Below are positions 1-30,950 of a stretch of 49,114 nucleotides of DNA, piece by piece (the first letter of the stretch is position 1; the number at the start of each line of letters is the position of its first letter). Position numbers and translations under genes: made by a program. Under the pieces are notes generated by a model. That model was not told where the DNA came from. It saw nothing but the letters and a program-made list of their open reading frames with translations, and did no database searches. The DNA lies in assembly GCA_018064885.1 (NCBI GenBank), contig JAGHUI010000034.1:1-49114 (forward strand). Reading direction: 5' to 3'. This stretch comes from Candidatus Minthosoma equi (GTDB lineage: Bacteria; Bacteroidota; Bacteroidia; Bacteroidales; Bacteroidaceae).

Positions 1-31
1 TTTTTACTTTTTTACTTTTTTACTTTTTACC
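1..31. repeat. 8-bp tandem repeat (ACTTTTTT units), cut by the window edge
   Basis: About four units of ACTTTTTT, cut by the window start. Read on the minus strand the unit is AAAAAAGT, the same unit as the array at 444-491 but in the opposite orientation. The two arrays therefore bracket the intergenic region as an inverted pair. Confidence 0.7.
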
Positions 32-443
32 ATGACATTGCTACGTTTCCTGTGGAGGATGAATCGATGACTGAGCATAACGACAAGCATTTTACGCTTG
101 TTTGCTAACTGGAGATTGCAAAATAGCGTGTAAAATCCATAAATTTTATTAATTTTTCGAGATTTTTAAGCAGTGCTTAATCTTGCACAAATGCACCAAA
201 AAACGCCTAACTTTGCAACGCTTTTGAAAAGCACACCAATTGAGAGTGACCGTCGCAGAGGTTCGAGCCTCGAAGGGCAAGAGGTTCAAGGCTCAGCGAA
301 GATGAGGAACAAGGCTAGCCCCCCCTCCTAGCCCCCCCCATAGGGGAGGGACGCCATGCGGACGTAAATAAAACGAAAACGAAAACGAAAACATCATTCT
401 TTATCGGATGGCGTGGAGTTTTGTTTTTGTGGTCGCAGAGAGT

Positions 444-491
444 AAAAAAGTAAAAAGGTAAAAAAGTAAAAAGGTAACTTGGTAACTTTCC
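444..491. repeat. 8-bp tandem repeat (AAAAARGT) after the GH35 gene
   Basis: Six consecutive 8-mers: AAAAAAGT, AAAAAGGT, AAAAAAGT, AAAAAGGT, AACTTGGT and AACTTTCC. It abuts the GH35 stop codon at 493-495. Variation is at one purine position in the first four units and decays in the last two. Confidence 0.8.
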
Positions 492-492
492 C

Positions 493-2631
493 CTATTCCA
501 CTTTTCTTTCCATCACTTTCACATCGTCAAGAGACAGGAGGTAATCGCCTGTGGCAGATTGGAGCTGCTCTTTCTGCGGTGTCTGCAAATAGATAGGATA
601 GTCCTTGCCAAGGGGGAGAATCTTGATTTCTACGGCTTTGCCGACAAGGTCGCTGAGACGCACGAGCATCGGTTTGCCGTTCCAGAAGTTGTCTTCCACA
701 AGTTTGCCGTCGGCATATACTCGCGCCACATCGCCTCGGTAGCTGATCTGCAGGTAGAGGTCGAGGTTTTCGTTGAAGTCGCCAAGGTTGGTGAGTCGCC
801 AAACGGCTGCCTTATCGAAATCTGCCTCTACAGGCATGGCTGCCACTTTCTGACTGCCCATGGCTACGGTGCGAAGTCCTGCGGTTTGCTTGCTGAGAAC
901 TACGGCTGCCTTGCCCAAGGTCTTCCAGTACTCTTCTGCTATTCCCTCTCCATCCTTGTAGAGTATGCCGCCATTCTCGGCATAGTGCATCTTGCCGTCG
1001 ATAACGTATGCCCTCTTTGCCTTCTCGGGAGAAAGGACGGTGATGGTCTTTCCCTTGATGCGGAATGGCTTGTCGAGTTTCAGTTTATAGGTTGTGCCGT
1101 CGATGGTGATGAGCGGACTGTCAAAGAACTTTCTCATTTTCTTTGTCATCGCATTAGGACGAACGGTGATGAGATACAGCTGTCCGTCTGCCTTGGCAAA
1201 TGGCTGAACACGGTTGGAGGTGATGGTGAGTCCTTCCCATTGCATGCCGTTAGGACAAACGCTGGTGAGCCCTTCCTCGTTGAGGATTCTGACGTACGAA
1301 TTGCTGAACTCGAAACAGCCGCGGCGAGCATAGTGCTCGCTGAGTGTGTCAACGTCCATCATGCTGAGTTCTTCGCCCCAGTCGGCAAGGAACTGATGGA
1401 ACCAGCGTGTCTGGTGAAAAGCATTCTCATTAGGCTGTCCCATCTCGCCAAGCGGTGCTTGGAAGTCGTAGGTCATGAGAGGCATGTCGTTGTAGTTGGT
1501 AACCTTCGTTGCCTGAGTCTCAGCCATGGTATGGTCGGGGTTGTAAGGGTTTGTGCCGCCATGATACATGTAGTAGCCTGGAAGATTGCTGCCCGAGCCA
1601 ACCTTGCACACAGCCAATGGGAAAGCCTCATAGCCGCTCATGTTTATGCGACGATGATAGCTTGGCATCATGCCGCCGCCAAGCTCGCAGGTGAGGTATG
1701 GATAGACTAATTTACTATTTTCGGATTTACTATTTACTATTGGGGATTTATTATTTTCGGATTTACTATTTCCAGAAAGCTCATCTTTGGTGAAGGTTTC
1801 GGTGGCGATGACACGAGACATGCGCTCGTCCTTCATGATGAAAGCATCTTTGTATGCTCCAGGCATATCGTCGAGGGTGCGATCCCAGAATCCGTCGGCA
1901 TAGTCGCCATAGAGTGGAAGGAGCTTTCCGAACTCTTCCTTGCCATTAAGCTTCGGCCATCCTGTGCGAGTGTAGAAAGGTGTGTCGAAACCTACCTTGA
2001 CAGCAATGTCTTTCAGAGCCATGTAGTAGTTCCAAGGACCACGGCATTCGTTCTCTATCTGCACTCCCACAACAGGACCGCCGTCTTTCCAGAGCATGCC
2101 TTTTGCCTGTGAGAAGATGTTGGCATAGAGACTCTCCGTTGCTTTCATGAAGCCTGGAGCCATTGAGCGAAGCTTATACTGATTGGGATCGGCGGCAGCC
2201 TTGTCTGTAAGCCATACAGGGAAACCACCCTGATACACCTCGCCATGGCAGAAGGGACCGAGACGAAGGACAACAGGCATCTGCTCCTGCTTGCACACCT
2301 CAAGGAAGTGGCGCAAGTTCTTGTTGCCCGACCAATCCCATTTGCCTTCCTCTGGCTCGTGATGAATCCAGAAGCAGTATGTGGCAAGCATGGTGATGCC
2401 GCCAGCCCTCATCTTCTGGATCTCGCGTCTCCATTCCTTTTCTGGCACACGAGCATAATGCATCTCGCCCATCACAGGCAGCACGTGTTTGCCGCCAATG
2501 ATGAAGCCATGACTATCAACTTCCAGTTTCACGCCATCGGGATTCACGTTCGTGCCAAAGGAGAACGTGTCTTGCGCCCCTGCCGACAGCGACATCAGCA
2601 GAGCGCCTATTGCTATAAGTGTTTTCTTCAT
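493..2631 (-). CDS. Secreted GH35 beta-galactosidase with a repeat-derived insertion
   Basis: Glycoside hydrolase family 35, a retaining beta-galactosidase that removes terminal galactose. Residues 1-20 (MKKTLIAIGALLMSLSAGAQ) are a signal peptide, so it acts in the periplasm or outside. The TIM barrel covers about residues 30-410, with acid/base Glu195 in QIENE and nucleophile Glu316 in TCELGGG. Beta-sandwich domains follow to 712. Residues 287-308 (rich in S, K, N) are encoded by tandem repeats at 1709-1771 that match the repeats in this operon's leaders. They lie about eight residues before the nucleophile and look inserted. The ATG overlaps the TAA of the upstream TPR gene by one base, so translation is probably coupled. 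Family assignment is firm; substrate is inferred. Confidence 0.93.
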   Translation of the reverse strand: MKKTLIAIGALLMSLSAGAQDTFSFGTNVNPDGVKLEVDSHGFIIGGKHVLPVMGEMHYARVPEKEWRREIQKMRAGGITMLATYCFWIHHEPEEGKWDWSGNKNLRHFLEVCKQEQMPVVLRLGPFCHGEVYQGGFPVWLTDKAAADPNQYKLRSMAPGFMKATESLYANIFSQAKGMLWKDGGPVVGVQIENECRGPWNYYMALKDIAVKVGFDTPFYTRTGWPKLNGKEEFGKLLPLYGDYADGFWDRTLDDMPGAYKDAFIMKDERMSRVIATETFTKDELSGNSKSENNKSPIVNSKSENSKLVYPYLTCELGGGMMPSYHRRINMSGYEAFPLAVCKVGSGSNLPGYYMYHGGTNPYNPDHTMAETQATKVTNYNDMPLMTYDFQAPLGEMGQPNENAFHQTRWFHQFLADWGEELSMMDVDTLSEHYARRGCFEFSNSYVRILNEEGLTSVCPNGMQWEGLTITSNRVQPFAKADGQLYLITVRPNAMTKKMRKFFDSPLITIDGTTYKLKLDKPFRIKGKTITVLSPEKAKRAYVIDGKMHYAENGGILYKDGEGIAEEYWKTLGKAAVVLSKQTAGLRTVAMGSQKVAAMPVEADFDKAAVWRLTNLGDFNENLDLYLQISYRGDVARVYADGKLVEDNFWNGKPMLVRLSDLVGKAVEIKILPLGKDYPIYLQTPQKEQLQSATGDYLLSLDDVKVMERKVE
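1709..1771. repeat. TTTACTATTT repeat inside the GH35 coding sequence
   Basis: Two copies of a segment resembling TTTACTATTTTCGGAT, with intervening TACTATT units, lie in frame in the GH35 gene. The same words (TTTACTATTT and GGATTTACTATTT) make up the leader arrays at 5925-5990 and 7359-7428. On the coding strand they read AATAGTAAATCCGAAAATA and encode Asn/Ser/Lys/Glu-rich peptide. Confidence 0.85.
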
Positions 2632-5600
2632 TATTCTTTATTCAGTCCATTTTCTCCAAGTGCTATCATGCTTTCACAATGCTTGCGGTTGCGGACATTG
2701 AGGTCTTCGTCCCAAACGAGAAGGTCTGGGAGCGATACGGCAAAATAGTCCATGCGTACAGTATCGAAATAATGCTGCTTTCCGTAGTTGACAAGCTTGT
2801 GGAAAAGACCTGTTGCTTTGTCCTCATCGCCTAATGCCCGATAGCATAGGGCTGCAAAATAGATCTTCTCAGGCTTGGCATCGTTGTAGTAGAGTGCAGC
2901 TGCTGGCTCAGTAGGTCCTGCGGTTCCGAGTCGGAACATCTTGCTTGCCTTGTTGAATGTTCGCTCCGATTCGTAATCCTGACCATTGCGCTTCTGCATG
3001 CGTCCCTTCAGCTCGAATGCAAGACCAAGATAATAGTAGAAATCATTGTCCTGAGCACCATAGAGCTTGCCTTCGCCAAGTGAGTGTGGGAATACAAGAC
3101 ATTCTTCAAGCAACTGGATGGCACGAGTGACATCTGGCATTGAGGAACGAGCCTCATCGTCATGCTCTTTAGCGGATGCTTCTTTGATTATTGCCTTTGC
3201 CATCTCAAGTCGGCATAGCTGATACTGACCGCTCACCTTGCCTTCGCCACCTTCCCAAGGATGGAACACATGGGTGTCGATGATGCTCTTTGCCTCCTCG
3301 TAGCGACCGAGCTGATTGAGAAGTGTGGCATGCTCAAGAATGAGGTCGTCACGCTGAGCCACCAGCAGTGGGAGTGCTTCGAAGTTCTGAAGACGCTCAG
3401 CGAATGGCTTTTCCAGTTTCTTGTAGAGCTGATCGAGTTCCATGAAGATACGCGCATCTGACTGATCGAGGGTGAACGCCATTTCCATTTCCTGAAGAGC
3501 ACGATCGGCATCCTGCTGCTTGTTGTAATAGAGCAAAGCAAGATTGCGATGAACAGTTGGAAGTGCAGGATTGAGTGCTTCTGAGCGTTCCCAGCATTCC
3601 TTTGCCACATCATACTGACGCTTATCGTAATACAGGTTGCCAAGCAGATAGAGGGCATTGGCATCATCAGAGAATATTGACAAAGCCTGCACAGCTTCAA
3701 GACGGTTTGGGAAACAGTATTCCACGCTCTGCTGTGCTGCTTTCTCGGCATCGGCGGCAGAGCCTGTGAGCCATGCTATATAATAATATGTAAGGGCTGT
3801 GGCGGCATGTTCTTCTATTGCTATCTTCCATATTGCCAAAGCAGATTCGCAGAGTCCTGCAGCAACATAATCAAGGGCAAGCTCGTCGTAGTTGTTAGCA
3901 TCCTTGCGCATCAATTCTTTCATTTCTGCTGTTTTGCCCTGTTCAAAGAGGATGGCGAAGTTGAATGGATTGATCTTGAGAGATTCTTCGGCGAATTCAG
4001 TTGAGGAAGTTGAGGGAGTTGAGGATGTTGACTGAGTTGACTGAGTTGAGGGAGTTGAGGAAGTTGAGGGAGTTGAGGAAGTTATTTTCAAGAGAGCTGC
4101 CTTGAGAGCACGCGCCTTGTGGTTGTGCCATCCGTAAATAAGCGATTTGTCTATGAGCATGAGAGCCTCATCGTATTCTCTTCGCATTGTGGCTATCTGA
4201 GCACACATCATGAAACCTGCCTGCTGCCACGCTGCATTCCATGTTGACTTGTAAGCCCAATCGAAAGCTTCATCATACCTGCCCTGATACTTGAGACAAA
4301 GAGCAAGATTGTAGAGAGGCTCGCCATCGTACGGATTGAGATTTCGCTTCTGCAATACCCTGACAGCTGTGCGGAAGTATGGCTCTGCCTTCTGGAAGCG
4401 TCCACGACGAAGATACCACAGTCCGACAGCGTTGTTGCAGCGCACATCCAGAGGATCACGGCGCAGAGCTTCCTCGTAATAGTCGAGGGCAGACCATGTG
4501 GCATGGCGGTATTGCTCAAGGTGAAGACCTGTGAGGTACAGCTGCTCGGTGGTCTTTATCTCGTTTGGCAAGAGAGCTGCCTCTGCCGCATCTGGTATAG
4601 GCTGAATTTCGTCTGGCTCTGGTTCCCAGCTCAGAAGCACTCGTCCGCTGGATGGATGGAGAATGTCGAAACGCAAGTTCTTTAGAGGTTCGCTTGCAGG
4701 TAATGTAGCATCGAATATGCTTTCTGGCGAGAGTGTCTGCAAGCTATTGTAGTATTCACTCTCCTTGCCTCTCAGCACAAGGCGCACTTGCTGTTTGCTT
4801 GTGGCAAGCACCTTGATGCTGATGCCTTGTTCTGTCTGCTGAACATTGAGTATGAAGTCTTTGCTTGCATTCTTCACGATGCCGAGTTCACGATATGGCA
4901 TGAAGTACTGGACAAAGGATTTTTCCTCGTATGGCATGAGCCAAGTGAAGTCGGGCTGATTTTCGGTGAACACACCTGCCATGAGCTCGATGTATGGTCC
5001 GTCCTCATCTGTAAGGTTGCGATCCCACGCACGACCGAAGTCGCCATTGCCCCATGTCCATTGCTTCTTGCCTGGCGCAATATGATGGTCAGCAACATGA
5101 AGCATGCCGCCATGCGTGTCGTTCTCGTAGCCACCTTCAAAGTTGTATTTCGATTTTGCCACCATGTAGCTTGTCGGAACAAATATGTTCTTGTAGTTGG
5201 AGATGTCAACGCCTGCGCTGTAGTCCATCTTGTAGTATGTTCCTGTGGCTATTGGGAAGGATGATACGGCACGCTTGCCATGGTCGAAAACGGCATTGAC
5301 ATCTGGTGGGAACACGCTCTGATAGGCATCGTTGACCGCCACGGCAGGGTTTGCCCACCAGAGGAATGTCTGCGGCACTTCGGTTGGGTTGTATAGCTTT
5401 CCCTGAATTTCAAGATAGGCGCACCCTGGACGAAGAGTGAAGCCAGCCTGTCCCTGCTGATGGAACATGCGCTCTCGCTCGTTCACCCACACAGTGATGC
5501 TGCCATCGCTGCCCTCTTCTATCTTGCAGTCAACAGGCATGAAGGTGCTGGGGCGATGGTGCTGAGGCCAGTTGAACTCGATGCCGCCACTAATCCAAGG

Positions 5601-5924
5601 GCCAGCGAGTCCCACGAGAGCAGGCTTGATGACTTGATTGTAATAGATGAAATGGCGACCCTTGATTTTGTCGTATGCCATCTGCACACGTCCTCCAAGC
5701 TCAGGGAGTATCATCACCTTTATGTATTCATTCTCAATGTAAACCGCCTCGTACTCATGGTCGGTTTTCTCATCGGAGATACTTTCTATAACTGGGTATG
5801 GATAAACCACGCCGCTTGATCCCTGATACACTCGCTTTTCAAGGAAGATTGGATTCTTCTCTGGCTTACCAGGCTCGTAGGTTGGAATAACAACCTTTTC
5901 TTTCCACGCTTTGACCATATTCAT
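2631..5924 (-). CDS. DUF5107-like beta-sandwich plus TPR protein (1097 aa)
   Basis: The N-terminal part, about residues 30-370, resembles DUF5107 domains, which have a galactose-mutarotase-like beta-sandwich. Conserved-looking stretches include ELGGRVQ, GGIEFNWPQHH and WWANPAV. From about residue 470 to the end there are many tetratricopeptide repeats (for example NNAVGLWYLRRGRFQKAEPY and YNLALCLKYQGRYDEAF). There is no signal peptide, so it is probably cytoplasmic. Residues 615-641 are a Ser/Thr/Pro/Gln linker encoded by a 9-bp tandem array. It lies between an MFS sugar porter and a GH35 gene and overlaps the GH35 start by one base. A carbohydrate-processing or sugar-binding role is inferred; the catalytic activity, if any, is unknown to me. 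The start ATG directly follows a repeat array. Confidence 0.85.
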   Translation of the reverse strand: MNMVKAWKEKVVIPTYEPGKPEKNPIFLEKRVYQGSSGVVYPYPVIESISDEKTDHEYEAVYIENEYIKVMILPELGGRVQMAYDKIKGRHFIYYNQVIKPALVGLAGPWISGGIEFNWPQHHRPSTFMPVDCKIEEGSDGSITVWVNERERMFHQQGQAGFTLRPGCAYLEIQGKLYNPTEVPQTFLWWANPAVAVNDAYQSVFPPDVNAVFDHGKRAVSSFPIATGTYYKMDYSAGVDISNYKNIFVPTSYMVAKSKYNFEGGYENDTHGGMLHVADHHIAPGKKQWTWGNGDFGRAWDRNLTDEDGPYIELMAGVFTENQPDFTWLMPYEEKSFVQYFMPYRELGIVKNASKDFILNVQQTEQGISIKVLATSKQQVRLVLRGKESEYYNSLQTLSPESIFDATLPASEPLKNLRFDILHPSSGRVLLSWEPEPDEIQPIPDAAEAALLPNEIKTTEQLYLTGLHLEQYRHATWSALDYYEEALRRDPLDVRCNNAVGLWYLRRGRFQKAEPYFRTAVRVLQKRNLNPYDGEPLYNLALCLKYQGRYDEAFDWAYKSTWNAAWQQAGFMMCAQIATMRREYDEALMLIDKSLIYGWHNHKARALKAALLKITSSTPSTSSTPSTQSTQSTSSTPSTSSTEFAEESLKINPFNFAILFEQGKTAEMKELMRKDANNYDELALDYVAAGLCESALAIWKIAIEEHAATALTYYYIAWLTGSAADAEKAAQQSVEYCFPNRLEAVQALSIFSDDANALYLLGNLYYDKRQYDVAKECWERSEALNPALPTVHRNLALLYYNKQQDADRALQEMEMAFTLDQSDARIFMELDQLYKKLEKPFAERLQNFEALPLLVAQRDDLILEHATLLNQLGRYEEAKSIIDTHVFHPWEGGEGKVSGQYQLCRLEMAKAIIKEASAKEHDDEARSSMPDVTRAIQLLEECLVFPHSLGEGKLYGAQDNDFYYYLGLAFELKGRMQKRNGQDYESERTFNKASKMFRLGTAGPTEPAAALYYNDAKPEKIYFAALCYRALGDEDKATGLFHKLVNYGKQHYFDTVRMDYFAVSLPDLLVWDEDLNVRNRKHCESMIALGENGLNKE
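4000..4083. repeat. 9-bp tandem array (GTTGAGGAA) inside the TPR gene
   Basis: Nine exact 9-bp units on the plus strand: GTTGAGGAA, GTTGAGGGA, GTTGAGGAT, GTTGACTGA (twice), GTTGAGGGA, GTTGAGGAA, GTTGAGGGA, GTTGAGGAA, then GTT. Because the unit is three codons, every copy encodes a T-S-S, T-P-S or T-Q-S triplet. The same 9-mer occurs in the ABC-F gene at 29221-29274. Confidence 0.95.
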
Positions 5925-5990
5925 TTACTATTTTACGATTTACTATTTACTATTATATTTATTTTTGGATTTACTATTTTACGATTTACT
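5925..5990. repeat. TTTACTATTT array in the leader of the TPR gene
   Basis: The array runs directly into the start codon of the TPR gene (ATG at 5924-5922) and fills half of the 132-bp gap to the MFS gene. Words are TTTACTATTT, TTACGATTTACT and ATTATATTTATTTTTGG. It shares a nearly identical core of about 40 bp with the array at 7359-7428. Confidence 0.9.
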
Positions 5991-6056
5991 CAAGTTTCTT
6001 TGCAAGCTCAACTTTAACCTTTACTACAACTTGAGCACATGCGAAAGTTGAATTAT

Positions 6057-7358
6057 TTAGCAATTTGAGGAGAGGGTCTTTTCAAGCTGCTCAAGAGTCT
6101 TGCCCTTCGTTTCTGGGCACGCCTTGAAGAGGAAGGCAAAGGCAGCGAAGCATATTCCGCTATATATCCAGAATGAGCCGCTGCTGCCAAGTGCGGCATT
6201 CATGCTCGGGAAGGAGAATGTGAGAGTGCAGCACCCCATCCACAGAGCAAAGGTGCAAGTCGCCATTGCCTTGCCGCGAATCCTGTTAGGGAAGATTTCG
6301 GACAAAAGCACCCATGTAACAGGTCCGAGCGTCATGGCGTAGCATGATATTGCCATGACAACAAGGATGACCATGAACACGCCTGTCACATTCATGGCAT
6401 AGCATGTGCCAAGAATGAGATAGATGAGTCCGAGACCTGATGCGCCGATGAGCATGAGTGTGCGCCGTCCCCATTTCTCAACTGTATATAGTGCTACGAA
6501 TGTGAAGATCACATTTGCAACACCTGTTATGACGATATTGATGAACATGCCATCAACATTGTAGCCTGCCCCTGCAAATATCTCTTCCGCATAGTTGAAG
6601 ATGACATTTGTGCCGCACCATTGCTGGAACACAGCTATGACAAGTCCCAAGAGCAGCAGTTTGCTGTATTTGCTGGAAAAGACTTCTCCGAGCGTTACAG
6701 CATCGGCAACGGATGCGCTGGCAGCATTGCGGCTTCCTTTTGTCAATTTTGATTTTTCGTTCAGATACACAGGGCTTTCAGGAATGAAGAATGCCATGAC
6801 GAGGAAAAGAGCCGCAGGCACAGTCTCTGCCCAGAACATCCAGCGCCATCCCCATTCTGCGCCCCATGCCGTTTCCACTCCAGAGCCAATGAGCATATTG
6901 ACGATCTGCGCCGACAGGATGCCAAGCACGATGGTCATCTGATTAAGGCTGACAAGGCGACCTCTGATATTCGCAGGCGACACCTCAGCAATATACATCG
7001 GCGACAGGGCAGATGCCACGCCTATGCCTATGCCGCCTATGAAGCGAGCAAGATTGAACAGCACGAAATCGTTGAACACTCCTGTGGCTATGGCACTCAC
7101 GGTGAACATCACGGCAGCCGCTATGAGCAGCGGCTTGCGTCCGTACCTGTCTGCCATGGCACCTGCCACCATTGCACCTATCAAGCACCCCACAAGGGCT
7201 GTACTCATTGCCACACCCTGCATAACAGGATCATTGGCAATACTGAAAAACTGTTCGTAGAACGGCTTTGCTCCGCCAATGACCACCCAGTCATAGCCGA
7301 ACAGAAGACCGCCCATTGCACTTACGCTGCAAATAAAATACAGAAAACCCTTTTTCAT
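6057..7358 (-). CDS. MFS sugar porter family transporter
   Basis: Twelve-helix major facilitator of the sugar porter family (XylE/GLUT-like), inner membrane, probably sugar:proton symport. Visible family motifs are GGLLFGYDWVVIGG at the first helix, DRYGRKP after helix 2, RFIGGIGIG and PMYIAEVSPANIRGR around helices 4-5, PESPVYL (usually PESPRWL) before the central loop, EKWGRRT after helix 8, SEIFPNRIRGKA after helix 10, and CPETKGKTLEQLE at the C-terminus. Length of 433 aa is normal for the family. It is first in a minus-strand cluster with the DUF5107/TPR protein and GH35 beta-galactosidase, so galactose or a galactoside is a plausible substrate; that is inference. Confidence 0.93.
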   Translation of the reverse strand: MKKGFLYFICSVSAMGGLLFGYDWVVIGGAKPFYEQFFSIANDPVMQGVAMSTALVGCLIGAMVAGAMADRYGRKPLLIAAAVMFTVSAIATGVFNDFVLFNLARFIGGIGIGVASALSPMYIAEVSPANIRGRLVSLNQMTIVLGILSAQIVNMLIGSGVETAWGAEWGWRWMFWAETVPAALFLVMAFFIPESPVYLNEKSKLTKGSRNAASASVADAVTLGEVFSSKYSKLLLLGLVIAVFQQWCGTNVIFNYAEEIFAGAGYNVDGMFINIVITGVANVIFTFVALYTVEKWGRRTLMLIGASGLGLIYLILGTCYAMNVTGVFMVILVVMAISCYAMTLGPVTWVLLSEIFPNRIRGKAMATCTFALWMGCCTLTFSFPSMNAALGSSGSFWIYSGICFAAFAFLFKACPETKGKTLEQLEKTLSSNC

Positions 7359-7428
7359 TTACTATTTGACTATTTACTATTTACTATTATATTTATTTTT
7401 ATTTTTGGATTTACTATTTGACTATTTA
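7359..7428. repeat. TTTACTATTT array in the leader of the MFS gene
   Basis: The array abuts the MFS start codon and uses the words TTTACTATTTGAC, TATTTACTATTA and TTTATTTTTGGATTTACT. It shares its central 40 bp with the array at 5925-5990. The main difference is a TTTGAC word in place of TTTTACGA, and one extra ATTTTT unit. Confidence 0.9.
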
Positions 7429-7480
7429 ACGCAAATTTGCGAAAAATATCCGACACAACGGTAAACTTTTGTCATATTTT

Positions 7481-7511: not shown

Positions 7512-7518
7512 CAAAAAG

Positions 7519-7555
7519 ATAACGAAAACGATAACGAAAACGATAACGAAAATAT
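7519..7555. repeat. GATAACGAAAAC array in the carbonic anhydrase leader
   Basis: Three 12-bp units, GATAACGAAAAC twice and GATAACGAAAAT, directly before the ATG at 7556. The 6-bp words GATAAC and GAAAAC recur at 368-392, 8133-8160 and 13322-13356. Confidence 0.9.
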
Positions 7556-8119
7556 ATGGCACTTATAAAAACAGTATGCGGTCTTACACCCCGATGGGGC
7601 AAGGACTGCTATTTCAGCGAGAATGCAACAATAGTGGGCGATGTCGAGATGGGCGACCAGTGCACCGTATGGTTCAATGCCGTTGTTCGCGGCGATGTCA
7701 ACTACATCAAGATTGGCAACCGTGTGAACATTCAGGACGGCTCGTGCCTCCACACCCTCTACCAGAAAGCAGCCATCGAGATTGGCGATGACGTTACGAT
7801 AGGCCACAACGTGACACTTCATGGATGCACAGTGAAGAGCGGCGCACTCATCGGCATGGGAGCCACAGTGCTGGACAATGCCGTCATTGGCGAAGGAGCC
7901 ATCATCGCCGCAGGTGCACTGGTGCTAAAGAACACACAGATTGGCGATGGCGAGCTGTGGGGCGGTGTGCCTGCTAAGTTCATCAAGAAGGTAGATCCAG
8001 AGCAGGCGAAGGAACTGAACATCGGCATTGCCAAGCACTACATCATGTATGCCGATTGGTATAGAGAAGAAGACTCTCGCAACAGCCCAAAGGGCGAGGG
8101 AGACAATGCGAAGGGGTAA
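7556..8119 (+). CDS. Gamma-carbonic anhydrase family protein (left-handed beta-helix)
   Basis: Trimeric hexapeptide-repeat protein of the gamma-carbonic anhydrase/YrdA family, 187 aa. Repeated turns of the form [IV]G-D-x-V are visible through residues 24-130. The three zinc-ligand histidines are His66 (GSCLHTL), His84 and His89 (IGHNVTLHGC), with the 5-residue spacing of the last two as in archaeal Cam. Carbonic anhydrase activity is likely but not assured, because many members are weak or inactive. The tail after residue 171 (RNSPKGEGDNAKG) is unlike the family and contains a GCCCAAAGGGC palindrome at 8085-8095, so it may be a late extension. It is monocistronic and converges on the AsmA-like gene. 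Confidence 0.93.
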   Translation: MALIKTVCGLTPRWGKDCYFSENATIVGDVEMGDQCTVWFNAVVRGDVNYIKIGNRVNIQDGSCLHTLYQKAAIEIGDDVTIGHNVTLHGCTVKSGALIGMGATVLDNAVIGEGAIIAAGALVLKNTQIGDGELWGGVPAKFIKKVDPEQAKELNIGIAKHYIMYADWYREEDSRNSPKGEGDNAKG

Positions 8120-8132: not shown

Positions 8133-8160
8133 TTTTCGTTTTAGTTTTTGTTTTCGTTAT
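8133..8160. repeat. GAAAAC-type repeat at the 3' junction, containing a stop codon
   Basis: Minus-strand words GATAAC, GAAAAC, AAAAAC and TAAAAC run across the end of the AsmA-like gene. They encode its last residues (DNENKN) and supply its TAA stop at 8141-8143. This is the same word family as the leader array at 7519-7555. Confidence 0.7.
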
Positions 8161-10165: not shown

Positions 10166-10191
10166 GATTATCTTCAAGTCATCTTTGCAGA

Positions 10192-10199
10192 CAAAGGTA
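10192..10199 (-). promoter_or_regulatory. -7 box of the AsmA-like gene
   Basis: TACCTTTG on the minus strand, 26 bases before the ATG at 10165. No clear TTTG is seen at -33. It fits a short leader and argues against the upstream in-frame ATG at 10231. Confidence 0.55.
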
Positions 10200-10250
10200 C
10201 TGCAAATATTCCAGAAACTGCGCATCTTCATTCACTTTTTTCATTTTTTC

Positions 10251-12034: not shown

Positions 12035-13312
12035 CTACATCTTGCTCATTGCCTGTTCCAAGTCGGCAATGATATCTTCTGCATTCTCTATACCTACCGA
12101 GAGGCGCACAAGATCTGGAGCGACACCTGCTTCGCGGAGCTGTTCCTCGCTCATCTGACGATGGGTATGGCTTGCTGGGTGAAGCACACAGGTGCGTGCA
12201 TCGGCAACATGTGTTACAATGGAGATGAAGTCAAGGTTGTCCATAAACTTGATAGCCTCATCTCTTGTGCCGTTCAATCCAAATGCGATAACGCCGCAGG
12301 AGCCGTTTGGCATGTATTTCTGACCAAGCTCGTAGTACTTATCTGATGGAAGTCCGCAATAGTTCACCCATCCTACCTTCTCGTTCTTCTCCAGCCATTC
12401 TGCCACCTTCTGAGCATTGGAGCAATGCTGTCTCATGCGAAGGGCGAGTGTCTCAAGACCGAGGTTGAGGAGGAAGGAGTTCTGAGGTGCAGGAATGGAG
12501 CCAAGGTCACGCATAAGCTGGGAAACAAGCTTTGTGCAATATGCCATCTTTCCGAAAGACTTTGTGTATGTCAGTCCGTGGTAGCTCTCATCTGGAGTGG
12601 TGAGTCCAGGGAACTTGTCTGCATGGGCATCCCAGTCAAAGTTGCCGCTATCAACAACACAGCCGCCAACCTGACTTGCATGACCATCCATGTATTTTGT
12701 TGTAGAATGAGTTACGATGTCGCACCCCCACTCGAAAGGACGGCAATTGATTGGAGTAGCAAAGGTGTTGTCAACAATCAATGGCACGCCATGCTTATGA
12801 GCCATCTTTGCAAAACGCTCAATGTCGAACACGTTGCCGCCAGGGTTGCTGATTGTCTCGCCAAAGAAACACTTTGTATTCTCCTTAAAGCAAGCCTCAA
12901 TCTTCTCATCGTCCCAATCTGGATCAACATAAGTGCACTCAATGCCAAGCTTCTTCATCGTAACACCGAAGAGGTTGTAAGTGCCGCCATAGATGTTGCA
13001 TGAGGTGATGAAATGATCGCCAGCCTCACAGATATTGAACACTGCATAGAAGTTTGCAGCCTGTCCGCTTGATGTGAGCACAGCACCCACACCTCCTTCA
13101 AGCGCAGCAATCTTCTTTGCCACAGCATCGTTTGTAGGATTAGCAAGGCGTGTGTAGAAATATCCCTCATCCTTCAAGTCGAAAAGACGAGCCATCTGGT
13201 CGCTTGTCTCGTAACGGAAGGTTGTACTCTGATAGATAGGCAGCTGCTGAGGCTCACCTTTTTTTGCTTTCCATCCGCCATGAATGCAGATGGTTTCAAG
13301 ATTCTTTGCCAT
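12035..13312 (-). CDS. metY: O-acetylhomoserine sulfhydrylase (PLP enzyme)
   Basis: Fold-type I PLP enzyme of the Cys/Met metabolism family, 425 aa. It converts O-acetylhomoserine plus sulfide or methanethiol to homocysteine or methionine. Visible features are YFYTRLANPT (residues 51-60, substrate/PLP contacts), SSGQAA (81-86, phosphate binding), the loop DNTFATP (181-187) and the PLP lysine Lys206 in THSTTKYMDGH. The length of about 425 aa favours MetY over the shorter cystathionine synthases. It has its own promoter at 13368-13398. The leader carries GAAAAC repeats up to the start codon. Confidence 0.95.
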   Translation of the reverse strand: MAKNLETICIHGGWKAKKGEPQQLPIYQSTTFRYETSDQMARLFDLKDEGYFYTRLANPTNDAVAKKIAALEGGVGAVLTSSGQAANFYAVFNICEAGDHFITSCNIYGGTYNLFGVTMKKLGIECTYVDPDWDDEKIEACFKENTKCFFGETISNPGGNVFDIERFAKMAHKHGVPLIVDNTFATPINCRPFEWGCDIVTHSTTKYMDGHASQVGGCVVDSGNFDWDAHADKFPGLTTPDESYHGLTYTKSFGKMAYCTKLVSQLMRDLGSIPAPQNSFLLNLGLETLALRMRQHCSNAQKVAEWLEKNEKVGWVNYCGLPSDKYYELGQKYMPNGSCGVIAFGLNGTRDEAIKFMDNLDFISIVTHVADARTCVLHPASHTHRQMSEEQLREAGVAPDLVRLSVGIENAEDIIADLEQAMSKM

Positions 13313-13321: not shown

Positions 13322-13356
13322 TTTTTAGTTTTCGTTATAGTTTTCGTTATTTTAAG
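13322..13356. repeat. GAAAAC/TATAAC array in the metY leader
   Basis: On the minus strand the leader reads AATAACGAAAACTATAACG then AAAACTAAAAAAC, ending six bases before the metY start region. It is the same word family as the array before the carbonic anhydrase gene. Confidence 0.8.
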
Positions 13357-13457: not shown

Positions 13458-13489
13458 CAAAAAACTCATAATTCAAAACTCAATAACTC

Positions 13490-14368
13490 ATGCACAAATG
13501 GATTATAGCCCTGAGCACCATCTTGATGATCTCTCTCTCAAACATAGCAAATGCTCAGGATGCGGAATATACCAAGGAGGACAGCACTCTCGTTGTTAAG
13601 CTTCTCAATGAAGCTAAGACTAAACGCGGCAATGAAAACCGAATCTTCTATTTCGGAAAGAAATTCCTCGGCATACCATACGTTGGTCATACTTTGGAAA
13701 ATGGCACGAAGGAGCATCTCATCGTCAACCTTCATGAACTGGACTGCACCACATTCGTGGAAACGGTCGTGGCTCTATCACTCTGCGACAAGGAAAATGC
13801 CCGCACCTTCAAGGACTATTGCCGCAACCTGACAAAGGTGCGTTGGAGGGGCGGCAAAATGGGCGATTACACCTCACGCCTCCACTACTTCACTTGGTGG
13901 GGCATAGACAACGAGGAACTGGGCATCGTCAAGGAAGTGGCTAACTACCAAGAGCCTTACGGACCTTTCACAGCCGTTCAAACTGTGAACATCAACTACA
14001 TGACTCAGCATCCACAGTCGTACAAGCATCTCAAGGCAAACCCTGACTTTGTGCCTGTAATCAAGAAATACGAGCAGCAGACAAACGGCATGAAATTCCG
14101 CTACATCCCAAAGAAAAACATGCAATGGTCACAGTCCACATCACTCGGCGAAGCTGTTCATGATGGCGACATAGTAGCCATGCTCACTGACAGCGACGGA
14201 CTCGACACACGCCACATAGGCATTGCCTTCTGGAAAAACGGCAAGCTATATTTCCTCCATGCCTCAAGCCTTTACAAGAAGGTGCTTCTCAACCCAGAGA
14301 CTTTCTACCTGTATGAAATGAAGCAGCCTAAGCACACTGGCATCAGGGTATATCGATTTGTGGAATGA
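13490..14368 (+). CDS. DUF1460 family N-acetylmuramoyl-L-alanine amidase-like protein
   Basis: Secreted cysteine hydrolase of the DUF1460 family, structurally related to NlpC/P60. The signal peptide is residues 1-22 (ending ANAQ). The likely catalytic Cys86 is in HELDCTTFVETV, and His242 is in DTRHIGIAFW, the expected Cys...His order. Length of 292 aa is typical. The likely substrate is peptidoglycan or its muropeptides in the periplasm; that follows from family knowledge. Its TGA stop lies at the edge of the MITE-like element at 14376-14624. Confidence 0.9.
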   Translation: MHKWIIALSTILMISLSNIANAQDAEYTKEDSTLVVKLLNEAKTKRGNENRIFYFGKKFLGIPYVGHTLENGTKEHLIVNLHELDCTTFVETVVALSLCDKENARTFKDYCRNLTKVRWRGGKMGDYTSRLHYFTWWGIDNEELGIVKEVANYQEPYGPFTAVQTVNINYMTQHPQSYKHLKANPDFVPVIKKYEQQTNGMKFRYIPKKNMQWSQSTSLGEAVHDGDIVAMLTDSDGLDTRHIGIAFWKNGKLYFLHASSLYKKVLLNPETFYLYEMKQPKHTGIRVYRFVE

Positions 14369-14375: not shown

Positions 14376-14624
14376 CAAGCTGTACGGTTAAAGAGTGCCC
14401 TTTGGGCCAATTAGAAAAACAAGGTCAAAACAAAAGAAAACCGAACTCGTCGTTCGCGATGAAGGAATTAGCAGGAAAGCAATTGATGCTGTTTTCTTTT
14501 GTTTTCCTATGTTTTGGCTACGCCGAGCTGAAGGTTCTTTTGTTTTTCTAATTAGCGGTTCTTTGCGAGCAAAGCGCTTCGCGATAAGCGCACAAACTTA
14601 TTTTTTGTTTTAACCGTACAGGTC
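14376..14624. mobile_element. MITE-like element with nested inverted repeats
   Basis: A non-coding element of about 249 bp. The outer inverted repeat is perfect over 13 bp: CTGTACGGTTAAA (14380-14392) and TTTAACCGTACAG (14609-14621). Nested inside are a 14-bp pair (AATTAGAAAAACAA, 14409-14422; complement at 14540-14553) and a 15-bp pair (14427-14441 with 14491-14505). Further small hairpins include GCGCTT/AAGCGC. The 9-bp sequence GAACTATTT flanks it on both sides (14367-14375 and 14625-14633), as for a target duplication. No transposase is encoded, so mobility would be in trans. Confidence 0.75.
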
Positions 14625-15540: not shown

Positions 15541-15650
15541 CTTCAATCTCAAATCAATCTCAAATCAACCTCAACCCAACCTCAACTCAATCTCAACCCA
15601 ATCTCAACTCAACCTCAACTCAATCTCAACTCAATCTCAACCCAATCTCA
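15541..15650. repeat. 11-bp tandem array (TCAATCTCAAC) filling a gene-gene gap
   Basis: About ten consecutive 11-bp units of pattern YCAAYCTCAAM, for example TCAATCTCAAA, TCAACCTCAAC, CCAACCTCAAC, TCAATCTCAAC and CCAATCTCAAC. Only three positions vary: T/C, T/C and A/C. The array includes the TGA stop of the DUF3943 gene (15650-15648) and ends shortly before the hydrolase start. Confidence 0.95.
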
Positions 15651-20383: not shown

Positions 20384-21058
20384 ATGACCGTAGTTTACGA
20401 AGATAATCACGTAATTATTGTTTCGAAGAACTCCAGCGAGATTGTTCAAGGCGACAAAACCGGCGACACTCCGCTGAGCGAAACAGTAAAGCAATACATC
20501 AAGGAAGCGTATGCCAAGCCAGGCAACGTCTTCCTTGGTGTTGTTCATCGTCTTGACCGTCCAGTAAGCGGACTTGTGCTGTTTGCACGAACTTCCAAGG
20601 CATTGCCTCGTCTGAACGCAATGTTTGCAAACGGAGAAGTACACAAGAAGTATTGGGCAATAGTCAAGAATCAGCCTCCACAGATGGAAGGCACACTCAT
20701 TCATTGGCTTGTACGCAATGAAAAGCAGAACAAATCATACGCTTACGAAAAGGAAGTACCCAACTCAAAGAAAGCCATTCTCAGCTATCGTGTCATAAGC
20801 AAATCAGACAATTACTACCTACTTGAGATAGACTTGAAGACAGGACGCCATCACCAGATCCGCTGCCAGCTTGCCAAGATGGGATGCCCGATAAAAGGCG
20901 ACCTCAAATATGGAGCAAAGCGCAGCAATCCCGATGGAAGCATCTCCCTGCTCAGCCACAGCATGGAGTTTATCCACCCTGTTTCAAAAAAAGAAATTGC
21001 CGTCACAGCACCTCTGCCCGACGACAATCTCTGGAAATCTTTAACCAAGGATTTTTAA
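20384..21058 (+). CDS. RluA-family pseudouridine synthase
   Basis: 224 aa, with the RluA signature VHRLDRPVSG and catalytic Asp58. It lacks an N-terminal S4 domain, like TruC/RluA-type members, and includes the conserved LKTGRHHQIR segment near residue 155. It isomerises uridine in rRNA or tRNA; the target base cannot be deduced from sequence. Translation is probably coupled to fabG, whose stop lies three bases upstream. Confidence 0.92.
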   Translation: MTVVYEDNHVIIVSKNSSEIVQGDKTGDTPLSETVKQYIKEAYAKPGNVFLGVVHRLDRPVSGLVLFARTSKALPRLNAMFANGEVHKKYWAIVKNQPPQMEGTLIHWLVRNEKQNKSYAYEKEVPNSKKAILSYRVISKSDNYYLLEIDLKTGRHHQIRCQLAKMGCPIKGDLKYGAKRSNPDGSISLLSHSMEFIHPVSKKEIAVTAPLPDDNLWKSLTKDF

Positions 21059-21070
21059 CTAATTGGTCCT

Positions 21071-21151
21071 ATTAGTCCCATTAGACTTATTAGTCCCATT
21101 AGACTCATTAGTCTCATTAGACTTATTAGACTTATTAGCCCTATTAGACCA
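21071..21151. repeat. 9-bp tandem array (ATTAGNNNN) between converging genes
   Basis: Nine perfect 9-bp units: ATTAGTCCC, ATTAGACTT, ATTAGTCCC, ATTAGACTC, ATTAGTCTC, ATTAGACTT twice, ATTAGCCCT and ATTAGACCA. ATTAG is invariant and the last four bases vary. It fills the gap between the pseudouridine synthase stop (21058) and the cyclophilin stop (21169). Confidence 0.95.
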
Positions 21152-23299: not shown

Positions 23300-23372
23300 C
23301 GCGGGGTGGAGCAGTTGGTAGCTCGCCAGGCTCATAACCTGGAGGTCGTTCGTTCGAGTCGAGCCCCCGCAA
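23300..23372 (+). tRNA. Initiator tRNA-fMet (anticodon CAT)
   Basis: A 73-nt cloverleaf. The acceptor is CGCGGGG pairing with CCCCGC, with the initiator C1/A72 mismatch. The D-stem is GAGC/GCTC with the initiator-type A11:U24 pair. The anticodon stem is CCAGG/CCTGG with loop CTCATAA, and the T-arm is GTTCG-TTCGAGT-CGAGC. The three stem pairs next to the anticodon are A-U, G-C, G-C instead of the usual three G-C. The CCA end is not encoded (AACAA follows). Confidence 0.93.
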
Positions 23373-23380
23373 CAAAGCGA

Positions 23381-23418: not shown

Positions 23419-23502
23419 GCCGAAATGGTGGAATGGTAGACACGAGGGACTTAAAATCCCTTGAGCATTGCGCTCGTGCGGGTTCGAGCCCCGCTTTCGG
23501 TA
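23419..23502 (+). tRNA. tRNA-Leu (anticodon TAA)
   Basis: An 84-nt class II tRNA with a long variable arm (TGAGCATTGCGCTCG). The acceptor stem is GCCGAAA/TTTCGGT, and the anticodon loop CTTAAAA gives TAA. The T-arm GCGGG-TTCGAGC-CCCGC is complete. CCA is not encoded. Confidence 0.93.
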
Positions 23503-23565
23503 CTTCTTTTTTCTCAATCACATTTATTAAAGTAATCCACTTTACCTTATTCCCCAAACAAAATC

Positions 23566-24320: not shown

Positions 24321-24326
24321 CAAACA

Positions 24327-24461
24327 GAATAATGCACAGATAACAGCAAAACATAAAAAAAACAATAAACAAGACAAAGCTTTTGGCTAATGAATCAAAA
24401 GCTTTGTCCAACGAGACAAAAGCTTTGTCGCATGAGCCAAAGCTTTTGTCTCGTTTTTTTT
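24327..24461 (+). ncRNA. Candidate small RNA with four mutually complementary arms
   Basis: It lies between a promoter-like pair at 24289-24320 and an intrinsic terminator. Hairpin 1 has a perfect 13-bp stem, GACAAAGCTTTTG (24373-24385) and its complement (24396-24408). Hairpin 2 has a perfect 16-bp stem (24412-24427 with 24438-24453) followed by eight T residues (24454-24461). The four arms all contain AAAGCTTT or a close relative, so arm 1 could also pair with arm 3 and arm 2 with arm 4. Alternatively it is only a terminator for the lipoprotein gene or another repeat array. Confidence 0.5.
24412..24461 (+). terminator. Intrinsic terminator
   Basis: A 16-bp perfect stem, 10-base loop and eight T residues on the plus strand. 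It would end the candidate small RNA and any read-through from the lipoprotein gene. Confidence 0.85.
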
Positions 24462-24632: not shown

Positions 24633-24649
24633 GCCTTTGTCTGTTGTTT

Positions 24650-25711: not shown

Positions 25712-25770
25712 ACTTTATATTCTATTGTTTTTGAACAAATACTCCACTGGAATCTGGAATCACTGTCGCA

Positions 25771-25797
25771 GAGTGGAACGATCTATGAGTTTTTGGT
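25771..25797. repeat. 27-bp direct repeat, right copy
   Basis: Matches 24510-24536 except one base (A for T at position 11). It lies in the gap between the transposase start and the helicase stop. Confidence 0.9.
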
Positions 25798-25821
25798 AGA
25801 GGAACATTGTTGCGATTTGAA

Positions 25822-28752: not shown

Positions 28753-28812
28753 AATCAATCTTTTTGTTTACATGTACATAACCTACGCTTTTGTTTAGCA
28801 TGAGCTATAACG

Positions 28813-28869
28813 ATGCAATGGTGAAGAGTGGTGACGAGTCACTTAGCACTCTTCACCTATGTATTGCAT
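28813..28869. repeat. Long palindrome upstream of the helicase gene
   Basis: The outer arms are ATGCAAT / ATTGCAT, the middle arms a perfect 10-bp GTGAAGAGTG / CACTCTTCAC (28821-28830, 28847-28856), and the inner arms GTGA/TCAC around CGAG. It lies in the 212-bp gap between the helicase start and the ABC-F stop, where no clear promoter boxes are seen. GTGACGAGTGATGAGT follows at about 28898. Confidence 0.7.
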
Positions 28870-28964
28870 TGTATTTTATGCAGTTAAATGCCTTTTGTGA
28901 CGAGTGATGAGTAAATGACAAAATTCAATGGAAAATGGCATACAGACGCAAGAAACTGTTGGTG

Positions 28965-30950
28965 CTACCCTTCCAATGCAGCACAGGCATCTGCCCATTC
29001 ATCTTCTGCTGCAGCAAGTTGTGATTTCAATTCACTATATTTTGTGAAGAGAGATTGATCGGAAGCACCTGATGGAGTGGCAAGTTTTGCTTCTACTTCG
29101 GCAATTTGTTCTTCTATCTTCATCACTTTCTGCTCAGCTGCCTCAACAGCTTTTTCCAGACGCTTCTGCTGCTTGTTGCGCTCCTTGAGTTCTGCGTATG
29201 AAAGAGGGGATGATGAATGAGTTGAAGATGTTGAGGAAGTTGATGGAGTTGAAGATGTTGAGGATGTTGAAGCAGATGGGCTTCCTGCGCTATTCATTGT
29301 GCGCCCAAGTTCATTTAGACTTTCTATCTGCTTCTTCTGCAAGAAGTCGTAAATGCCACCAATATGCTCACGCACTTTGCCTCCTCCAAACTCATAGACT
29401 TTATCTACGAGTCCATCAAGGAAATCACGGTCGTGGGAAACAACTATGACTGTTCCGTCAAACTCACGAATTGCCTGTTTAAGAACATCTTTTGACTGCA
29501 TATCAAGATGGTTGGTTGGCTCATCGAGAATGAGAAGATTGACTGGTTCGAGAAGCAAACGTATCATGGCAAGACGAGAACGCTCACCACCAGAGAGAAC
29601 CTTTACGAACTTATCGCTTGCTTCGCCTCCAAACATGAAAGCACCAAGGATATCACGTATCTTCAAACGAATGTCACCCTTTGCAACACGATCAATAGTA
29701 TCAAACACAGTAATGTCACCATCAAGCAATTGTGCTTGATTCTGAGCAAAATATCCTATTTGAACATTATGGCCAATCTTCAAGTTTCCATTGAAGCCTC
29801 CCTGTATTGGCTCTATGCCTGCAGAGTCCATTATGCACTTCACAAGGGTTGATTTTCCTTCACCATTATTTCCCACAAATGCAACCTTCTCGCCACGCTT
29901 GATAGTGAGATCTACGGATGAGAACACAGTATGATTGCCGTATGATTTCTCCACACTATCACAAATGACAGGATAGTCGCCAGAACGGAGACAAGGAGGA
30001 AACTTGAGATGGAGAGAAGATGTGTCAACCTCGTCAACCTCAATAGGCACAATCTTTTCCAGCATCTTTATGCGCGACTGTACCTGATTGGATTTTGTTG
30101 GCTTATAACGAAACATCTCAATAAACTGCTTGATTTCAGCAATTTCTTTTTGTTGATTCTCGTATGCTCGCAACTGCTGTTCACGGCGCTCATCACGAAG
30201 CTTCACATATTCATCGTACTTTACCTTGTAGTCATTGATGCGGCGACAAGTGATCTCTATGGTGCGATTAGTGACATTATTGATGAATGCGCGGTCGTGA
30301 GACACAAGAATGACAGCATTAGCTCGCTGAGCAAGGAACTGCTCAAGCCATTGGATAGAACCGATGTCAAGGTGGTTGGTTGGCTCATCGAGAAGAAGAA
30401 GATCTGGTTTCTGAAGCAGAAGCTTTGCCAACTCAATACGCATGCGCCATCCTCCAGAGAACTCGCTTGTAGGACGGTCGAAGTCGCTGCGTTGGAAGCC
30501 AAGTCCTTGAAGAGTACGCTCCAATTCTGCATGATAGTTCTGTCCACCCATCATATTGAAACGATCGTTCTCGTGAGTGAACTTCTCTATCAGTTCCATA
30601 TAAGATTCTGATTCATAATCAGTGCGCGATGCAATTTCTGCATTCATCTTGTCAAGACGTTCCTGCATTTCGCTGATATGAGCGAAGGCTGTCTCTGCTT
30701 CTTCCATCACGGTATGGGTGTCTGAAAGCACCATGACCTGAGGAAGATAACCTATCGTAACATCCTTCTGGCGAGCCACCTGACCGTATGTTGGCTGTTG
30801 CATGCCTGCAATGATTTTGAGCATGGTGGATTTGCCTGCACCATTCTTTCCTACGAGAGCGATGCGGTCTTTTGGATTGACAACGAAATTTGCGTCTATG
30901 AATAGCGGTGTAGCTGAGAATTCGACACCAAGATTATTTATACTGATCAT
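28965..30950 (-). CDS. ABC-F family ATPase with a repeat-encoded linker
   Basis: 661 aa, with two ABC modules in one chain and no membrane part. ABC-F proteins act on the ribosome (translation factors or antibiotic protection). Walker A motifs are GKNGAGKST (34-42) and GNNGEGKST. Signatures are FSGGWRMRIELAKLL and LSGGERSRLAMIRLL, each followed by LLDEPTNHLD or LILDEPTNHLD. The P-site linker has YKPTKSNQVQSR. A Ser/Thr-rich stretch at about 559-583 is encoded by a 9-bp array, and a C-terminal coiled coil (about 590-661) resembles Uup. I start at ATG 30950, which overlaps the end of the EFR1 gene by 17 bases, rather than 105 bases further upstream. Confidence 0.93.
   Translation of the reverse strand: MISINNLGVEFSATPLFIDANFVVNPKDRIALVGKNGAGKSTMLKIIAGMQQPTYGQVARQKDVTIGYLPQVMVLSDTHTVMEEAETAFAHISEMQERLDKMNAEIASRTDYESESYMELIEKFTHENDRFNMMGGQNYHAELERTLQGLGFQRSDFDRPTSEFSGGWRMRIELAKLLLQKPDLLLLDEPTNHLDIGSIQWLEQFLAQRANAVILVSHDRAFINNVTNRTIEITCRRINDYKVKYDEYVKLRDERREQQLRAYENQQKEIAEIKQFIEMFRYKPTKSNQVQSRIKMLEKIVPIEVDEVDTSSLHLKFPPCLRSGDYPVICDSVEKSYGNHTVFSSVDLTIKRGEKVAFVGNNGEGKSTLVKCIMDSAGIEPIQGGFNGNLKIGHNVQIGYFAQNQAQLLDGDITVFDTIDRVAKGDIRLKIRDILGAFMFGGEASDKFVKVLSGGERSRLAMIRLLLEPVNLLILDEPTNHLDMQSKDVLKQAIREFDGTVIVVSHDRDFLDGLVDKVYEFGGGKVREHIGGIYDFLQKKQIESLNELGRTMNSAGSPSASTSSTSSTPSTSSTSSTHSSSPLSYAELKERNKQQKRLEKAVEAAEQKVMKIEEQIAEVEAKLATPSGASDQSLFTKYSELKSQLAAAEDEWADACAALEG
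29221..29274. repeat. 9-bp tandem array (GTTGANGAN) inside the ABC-F gene
   Basis: Six 9-bp units: GTTGAAGAT, GTTGAGGAA, GTTGATGGA, GTTGAAGAT, GTTGAGGAT and GTTGAAGCA, in frame and preceded by degenerate copies. It is the same 9-mer and orientation as the array in the TPR gene at 4000-4083, and encodes a Ser/Thr/Pro linker. Confidence 0.95.

Follow-up and report, generated by a model that had tools for sequence, protein, structure and literature searches.

Among the tandem repeats described so far, the short tandemly repeated repetitive (STRR) heptamers of cyanobacteria form several degenerate families dispersed over the genome, contingency loci carry phase-variable simple sequence repeats whose unit number changes by slippage in leaders and genes, and the library model of eukaryotic satellite DNA holds that related species share a library of which they amplify different members. 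Here, we examined the tandem arrays of a 49,114-nucleotide stretch of Candidatus Minthosoma equi (contig JAGHUI010000034.1, positions 1 to 49,114, assembly GCA_018064885.1; hereafter, the window) and compared them with those of its genus (45 genomes including its own, one genome per species). We regard it as probable, although by no means assured, that the arrays draw on a library of minisatellite words common to the genus, in which slippage lengthened the arrays and short ectopic copying carried words to further loci. One of the closest described systems is the TAACTGA direct repeats, which are 7 bp long and mostly intergenic, with many just before start codons and some in genes; they have been described from Beggiatoaceae, cyanobacteria, and a small number of Bacteroidetes, and other heptamers may accompany them (MacGregor 2015, PMC4679880). 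The other is BrickBuilt, a dispersed miniature inverted-repeat transposable element (MITE) of Porphyromonas gingivalis that holds a minisatellite of 23-nt units, is always intergenic, and possesses inverted ends, conserved and variable unit sites, a strain-variable unit number, and filled and empty sites (PMC4596501).

The arrays of the window resemble the TAACTGA repeats in being short direct repeats that lie in intergenic regions, before starts, and in genes, and they differ from them in the many words per genome, the several periods, the species dialects, the adjacency to stop codons, and the in-frame loop inserts. Membership in that family was rejected, as TAACTGATAACTGA was present in only two of the 45 genomes, with two matches in the own genome and three in all 45. 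Comparison with BrickBuilt revealed a host of the same order (Bacteroidales) and, in two relatives of our species (G055 and G017), a MITE of the same kind; in contrast, the units in the window measure 6–12 bp or multiples thereof, and they are also found in genes of the GH35, TPR, and ABC-F types. Most of the in-gene arrays compared change in steps of three and do not resemble the on/off switches of contingency loci, and unlike the eukaryotic satellites, the arrays are bacterial, very short, and scattered over many sites. Word searches of the open-access literature turned up no other description of tandem-word dialects among species of these bacteria.

The genome (G000, the own genome) amounts to 3.51 Mb in 114 contigs, of which C9 is the window; throughout, G denotes a genome, L a sampled stretch, and C a contig of the own genome. 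Arrays were detected by Tandem Repeats Finder and by direct reading, and the own-genome sample comprised 368,515 bases (20 stretches and the window), from which arrays with a score of at least 50 and a period of 4–40 were taken. Genes were called by a crude longest-frame rule, so that the status of an array as lying in a gene or in a gap is approximate. Several families of short tandem repeats had been reported in an earlier note on the window, and fourteen arrays of named kinds were indeed located within positions 1–29274. The own-genome sample contained 68 arrays, 52 of which are intergenic, versus 0–2 in ten order-2 Markov copies of the 41,874 intergenic bases; the arrays therefore exceed chance. 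Six sampled genomes of the genus displayed 17–32 arrays per 100 kb at periods of 4–40 and 8–20 per 100 kb with 6–12-bp units, G010 and G011 displayed 8–11 and 0–2.5, respectively, and the own-genome stretches not selected for words displayed 16.6 and 8.4. Heptamers were the commonest period in the five other genomes sampled, while the own genome also uses periods of 6, 8, 9, 11, and 12 beside 7.

Word usage differed markedly between species. Three tandem copies of GTTGAGNNN were present in one of the 45 genomes, and GTTGAGNNNGTTGAGNNNGTTGAG gave 19 own-genome matches, of which 16 lie on contigs other than that of the window, and did not match any of the 44 remaining genomes; a letter-reversed GTTGAG pattern, used as a control, gave ten own-genome matches, which are probably the same arrays in another phase, and one in G051. 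The pattern ACGAWAACGAWAACGAWAACG (ACGAWA-type, three copies) gave 34 own matches and was found in eight of the 45 genomes, mainly G008 (33) and G001 (9), while ATTTACTATTTACTATT was found in 15, its letter-reversed control being frequent instead in G057 (47) and G017 (19). The word of positions 7340–7440 has further relatives on C18, C87, C38, C4, C35, C31, and C40. Because eight G000 stretches and L096 had been picked for known words, and the G008, G004, and G001 stretches came from contigs with word matches, a cleaner sharing test was limited to three genomes and to stretches whose choice had not depended on words: G000 (L097–L115 and L181–L184 only), G057, and G017, the latter two picked as rich in one word, with their contigs picked via a gene search. 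Of the pairs of arrays that were separated by more than 3 kb or came from different stretches, 147 of 1431 (10.3%) shared a 9-mer within a genome versus 56 of 3024 (1.9%) between genomes, compared with 0.5% and 0.3% for unit-shuffled arrays, and none of 5000 label permutations reached the observed within/between ratio. Sharing within each genome amounted to 40/739 (5.4%) in the own genome, 28/351 (8.0%) in G057, and 79/341 (23.2%) in G017, and the larger sample, minus the nine word-selected stretches, gave 8.0% within and 3.1% between genomes. The earlier claim that one word family returns at separate loci thus extends genome-wide, in pattern tallies and in 9-mer sharing alike, and the sharing is well above the shuffled and between-genome controls. 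Since sharing is higher within than between genomes, and higher between genomes than after shuffling, a genus-level library and species dialects both exist, and neither reflects base composition. That each species favors its own words further suggests that words are copied from site to site and not only stretched in place.

In several instances, non-periodic sequence accompanies the shared words. The AAAAARGT array at 441..477 (plus strand; 8/16-bp AGTAAAAA) continues into the non-periodic GGTAACTTGGTAACTTT, and this composite (441..488) was found again, non-periodic part included, on another contig at L108:155-191 (G000:C13). Two ATTTACTATTT arrays located 1.4 kb apart, at 5923..5990 and 7352..7428 (both minus strand), have a common non-periodic core; both end at an ATG, the former as the leader of a TPR gene (2631–5924, minus) and the latter as that of a sugar-porter (MFS) gene (6057–7358, minus). 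A composite at L100:17569 matches L195:10991, 13 kb away on the same contig, and in G004 two different word arrays carry the same junction at two places. Between the siblings G017 and G055, an ACGATGT-type heptamer array is replaced by a GGAATGA-type array with its own tail, while the flanks are 98% identical. The replacing block (L139:14290-14400) was matched 50 times in G055 and 55 times in G017 (E up to 10), in many cases through the array alone; at least 27 matches besides the block itself extend at least 25 nt into its non-array head or tail, and the twenty copies viewed form a mosaic of recurring modules. In the same relatives, we identified a MITE of ~200 bp with imperfect ends and heptamer arrays inside (L139:11985-12195 and L227:7469-7720), which in G055 is bordered by an 8-bp target duplication (TTACTTAT) and is missing from the empty orthologous site of G017. 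This element, with matches in 19 of the 45 genomes, offers a counterpart in kind to the leader and tail ends and the target duplication of BrickBuilt.

Comparison of sibling species revealed how arrays change at a given locus. G017 and G055 are 96.4% identical over 19.4 kb, and 12 of the 51 arrays in G017 and 13 of the 26 in G055 could be compared, the rest having no collinear partner in the stretches sampled. When merged by hand into ~13 loci, eight were of equal length, three differed by whole-unit steps (−11 where the unit measures 11 bp, +49 and −35 where it measures 7 bp), and two displayed block differences. Between G006 and G056, three loci were equal and the others differed by 32 (an 8-bp unit, +32), by 27 in a gene, and by 3 in a 15-bp array. 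Over four pairs in both directions, the length was unchanged in 27 of the 45 array rows, many of which carry point mutations. Unit-number polymorphism, in the form of whole-unit steps, is hence found between sibling species of the genus, and arrays change in place by whole-unit slippage or unequal exchange together with point mutation. Length differences at arrays called in-gene were multiples of three with one exception, L225:5043, which differs by 11, is in-gene in G017 and intergenic in G055, and whose frame may not be a gene. Putative array gains in G011 relative to G010 were rejected, since one array is present in both with point changes and the other locus has diverged. The statement that units differ at only a few fixed positions was upheld as a tendency, given that, among 107 ungapped arrays from six genomes, the most variable third of unit positions takes a mean of 77% of substitutions versus 65% under a uniform null, with p < 0.05 for 14 of the 107. 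Among the window arrays tested, p was below 0.05 at 15543 (0.007) and 21058 (0.002) and not at the five others. Such concentration is compatible with slippage, because multi-unit duplication copies substitutions too.

The arrays occupy particular kinds of sites. Stop edges lay within 3 nt of an array in 16 of 122 cases versus 4.5 expected (maximum 13 in 2000 random placements in the same gaps), a count that excludes 28 frame-intruding, stop-rich arrays and the nine word-selected stretches; the raw count (36 of 150 versus 5.4 expected) is too high, since a frame that enters a stop-rich array terminates there. The corresponding excess at start edges (9/132 versus 3.8 expected, maximum 11) is not secure. 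In many cases, the repeat register begins with the stop codon itself as its initial unit. An example is the 11-bp YCAAYCTCAAM array (15543..15650, minus strand; sense GTTGAGATTGA) lying 3′ of a DUF3943 gene (15648–17246, minus), which is in register with the TGA of that gene; the protein end (15648) agrees with that of the G057 ortholog. The 9/18-bp ATTAGNNNN array (21058..21149, plus strand) starts from the stop codon at 21058 and takes up almost all of the space separating two convergent genes. Of the 27 arrays that come close to filling their gap, 25 lie between co-directional genes.

Protein-coding sequence also receives the words, in the form of loop inserts and linkers. In the GH35 gene (493–2631, minus), a ATTTACTATTT array (1710..1771, minus strand) forms the in-frame insert GNSKSENNKSPIVNSKSENSKL; there is no insert at this site in 28 of the 29 genus orthologs fetched, and a different one is present in G041. 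A second loop of the GH35 gene contains word-like inserts in 12 of 30 orthologs compared by eye, with differing words and lengths (87–90 nt when empty, 102–126 nt when filled), one of them with a nested dispersed module. The 9-bp GTTGAGGNN array within the gene of the DUF5107/TPR protein (3999..4083, minus strand; sense CTCAACTNN) encodes SSTPST repeats and is absent from all ten orthologs aligned over the site. A further GTTGAGGNN array (29209..29272, minus strand) encodes an SSTSSTPST linker in an ABC-F-type ATPase gene (28965–31043, minus), the product of which comprises two ABC_tran domains and an ABC_tran_Xtn domain; at this linker, the own genome has 9-bp words, G017 and G055 have heptamers of their own, and the two other relatives that were aligned have neither (the remaining five matches being partial or distant). 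Loop inserts matched 9 of 43 arrays of their own genome in G017 and 5 of 23 in G055 versus ~7% of the arrays of unrelated genomes, 2 of 8 in G006 and 2 of 18 in G056 versus 5%, and none of 2 in G016.

Several arrays lie in leaders, which bears on possible function. A 12-bp GATAAC/GAAAAC array (AAAACGATAACG; 7513..7552, plus strand) precedes a gamma carbonic anhydrase-like gene (7556–8119), and a AAAACTCATAACTC array (13461..13490, plus strand) precedes an AmiA-like gene (13490–14368). Upstream of the two arrays, at −52 and −40, respectively, lies TAACTTTG, which we take to resemble the −7 element of Bacteroidetes, so that both arrays stand between this element and the ATG. Another 12-bp array of the GATAAC/GAAAAC group (13326..13350, minus strand; sense TAACGAAAACTA), located downstream of TAATTTTG, lies in the leader of the O-acetylhomoserine sulfhydrylase gene (12035–13312, minus). 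A conserved regulatory element was considered for this leader and rejected, as the array was not conserved among the 50 relatives, out of 80 fetched, that were compared by eye, a few of which had other words. Forward orientation before starts, a trait of the TAACTGA repeats, is seen in three leaders of the window and in the GAWAAC family. Between co-directional genes, this family reads in the mRNA sense in 17 of 18 gaps (p = 0.00014), and in 13 of 13 once the word-selected stretches are set aside, and five other word families show no orientation bias (at least five co-directional arrays each; p 0.5–1). In Flavobacterium johnsoniae, of a phylum without Shine–Dalgarno sequences, adenines upstream of the start favor initiation (PMC6847099). 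Together with the sense bias, this suggests that the A-rich GAWAAC family may be retained because it serves translation, as an unstructured mRNA-sense leader, and the remaining word families look tolerated rather than selected.

The earlier note had set an active process that copies or edits words against a null of ordinary slippage plus point mutation. Within a locus, this null fits (27 of 45 rows equal, whole-unit steps), and between loci it fits badly, so that the copying process proposed there gains partial support. The sharing statistics, the composites, and the block replacement speak for copying between loci, while neither an enzyme nor a dedicated element was found in the own genome. 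A number of observations weigh against the reading of a spreading library. Composite examples are few, and no copying agent was found, although no search was made for genes that track array density. The MITE of the relatives gave no match in the own genome at E 1e-5. Dispersed non-array flanks were found at 6 of 63 arrays of the own genome versus 130 of 739 (18%) control positions, and, among the seven genomes compared, flank enrichment was clear only in G057 (9/21 versus 12%) and G055 (4/14 versus 4%), the other values being 4/38 versus 9% in G008, 3/17 versus 9% in G004, 7/29 versus 21% in G017, and 0/19 versus 0% in G001. Unequal length was observed in 18 of 45 array rows versus 50 of 199 control intergenic rows (four pairs, both directions), so that the arrays are not hypervariable at sibling divergence. 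As the own-genome flanks fall below control, words in this genome are mostly shared without shared flanks. Trans-copying between loci accounts best for the shared words, and we infer it from the sharing statistics, the few composites, and the events seen in relatives. Under the library reading, each species would have amplified its own subset of 6–12-bp words (heptamers being commonest in the relatives), which may spread by short ectopic copying, as gene-conversion-like patches or by template switching between arrays, and in some relatives may also travel inside the transposing MITE. Such words would persist at tolerant sites, namely the stop-to-start gap, the promoter-to-ATG leader, and in-frame protein loops.

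It is conceivable, although rather unlikely in our view, that plain slippage and point mutation acted on each locus separately and that the likeness of words stems from similar AT-rich seeds in leaders and trailers. The sibling length changes of −11, +49, −35, and +32, the equal length of 27 of 45 rows, and the fixed-position substitutions, compatible with multi-unit duplication, all agree with this account; however, 9-mer sharing within genomes is ~20 times that of unit-shuffled arrays and five times that between genomes, and the composites and the block replacement do not correspond to slippage of one seed. Less probable still is that a species-specific protein binding RNA or DNA recognizes the words as signals, as proposed for the TAACTGA repeats. 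The leaders in which arrays lie between a −7-like element and the ATG, the sense orientation of GAWAAC (17/18), and the promotion of initiation by upstream adenines in F. johnsoniae (PMC6847099) are in line with a signal, but the five other word families lack an orientation bias, and words also occur in genes and in convergent gaps. To a similarly low degree, we entertain a dedicated, perhaps RNA- or single-stranded-DNA-templated, machinery or a self-spreading patch mechanism that would write the current words of each species into tolerant sites genome-wide, protein loops included.

General carriage by MITEs was also considered. The filled and empty sites of the heptamer-bearing element in G055 and G017, with its 8-bp duplication, and the dispersed copies of the block L139:14290-14400 are what would be expected if all arrays were cargo or debris of BrickBuilt-type elements. 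This is nevertheless very unlikely, and for the own genome the idea was rejected: there is no match at E 1e-5, flanks fall below control, and a scan of the own-genome sample for the MITE-end motif gave six matches, no more than shuffled motifs (1–7). Terminal inverted repeats and target duplication were not found in the own genome when searched via the MITE of the relatives, the ends of BrickBuilt itself not being part of that search. A short stretch of the window like these MITE ends (CAAGTTTCTTTGCAAG / GCACATGCGAAAGTTG; 5985..6050, no strand assigned) has a motif count that is not significant in the own genome. Moreover, the G001 sample contains 19 arrays yet lacks dispersed non-array repeats, and arrays are found in genes whose orthologs can be aligned on either side of them with no element around. 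An artefact of assembly or binning of a metagenome-assembled genome (MAG) is, finally, the explanation to which we give hardly any credence: the window looks like a MAG contig, and a 21-bp repeat described below lies near contig ends, but reading frames remain intact around the arrays, and other genomes have arrays of the same kinds at orthologous sites.

The remaining arrays of the window comprise an 8-bp array at the contig end (TTTTTACT, 3.5 copies; 1..28, no strand assigned; Tandem Repeats Finder), a 6-bp AAAACG array of 3.8 copies in the gap left of the GH35 gene (370..392, plus strand), and a weak TTTTCG array of the GATAAC/GAAAAC group (8133..8158, minus strand; score 38), which overlaps the stop end of a gene (8141–10231, minus) with a DUF748 match below cutoff. 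A mosaic intergenic element at 14395..14610 (no strand assigned) displays inverted arms by eye; its module TTGGCTACGCCGAGCTGAAGGTTCT was found again in G004, G017, and G055 at 92–100%, and other parts were found again in L196 and L114 of the own genome. At the gathering threshold of Rfam, the window matches are a tRNA-Met (CAT; 23300–23373) and a tRNA-Leu (TAA; 23419–23503), and nothing else. The nearest genus genomes share ~81% DNA identity with the own genome in the sulfhydrylase gene. The nearest relative of the sulfhydrylase itself is that of a Prevotellaceae MAG (94% identity), and close matches are mostly from rumen and other gut MAGs titled Prevotellaceae, Prevotella, Bacteroidaceae, or Bacteroidales, with Palleniella muris and P. 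intestinalis strains also among the relatives.

Other repeats with longer units or palindromic structure were observed alongside. A 21-bp AAAGCTTTTGGCTCATTAGAC-type repeat with the palindrome AAAGCTTT is present in ~3.5 copies at window positions 24376–24446, and further copies in the own genome lie at L100:312, L104:349, L106:5, L108:16260, L110:12014, and L114:12158; six of the seven are within 1 kb of a contig end, and the repeat is a dispersed multi-copy element that perhaps falls into a longer-unit minisatellite class. Long 9-bp arrays with the core CTAGA were found in the own genome at L181:4494 and L181:5442. Intergenic arrays of 23–24 bp with palindromic units (CGGTGTGAGTCACACCG, CGACGTCG) at L128:3671, L129:3381, L130:3450, L134:2629, and L218:12602, partly conserved in siblings, are probably another class of intergenic hairpin repeat. 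Finally, G057 has two copies of a hairpin-like element (L220:3513-3613 and L222:7144-7244); in each, heptamer arrays in inverted orientation (TAAAGTT / CTTTAAA) make up the arms, and the spacing is the same in both.

Studies of short tandem repeats in bacteria usually consider one locus at a time; here, the repeats appear as a genus-wide library of which the sampled species amplify their own subsets, and they represent a bacterial parallel to the evolution of satellite libraries and to concerted evolution among dispersed loci. If a word-copying activity exists, species would drift apart in dialect as eukaryotic satellites do. Since loops of the GH35, TPR, and ABC-F proteins gain low-complexity linkers in the dialect of their species, a genome-wide repeat process makes new protein sequence. 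The sibling species are close enough for single events to be caught, and, if trans-copying is confirmed, short ectopic copying of DNA between non-homologous loci would become measurable in ordinary gut bacteria.

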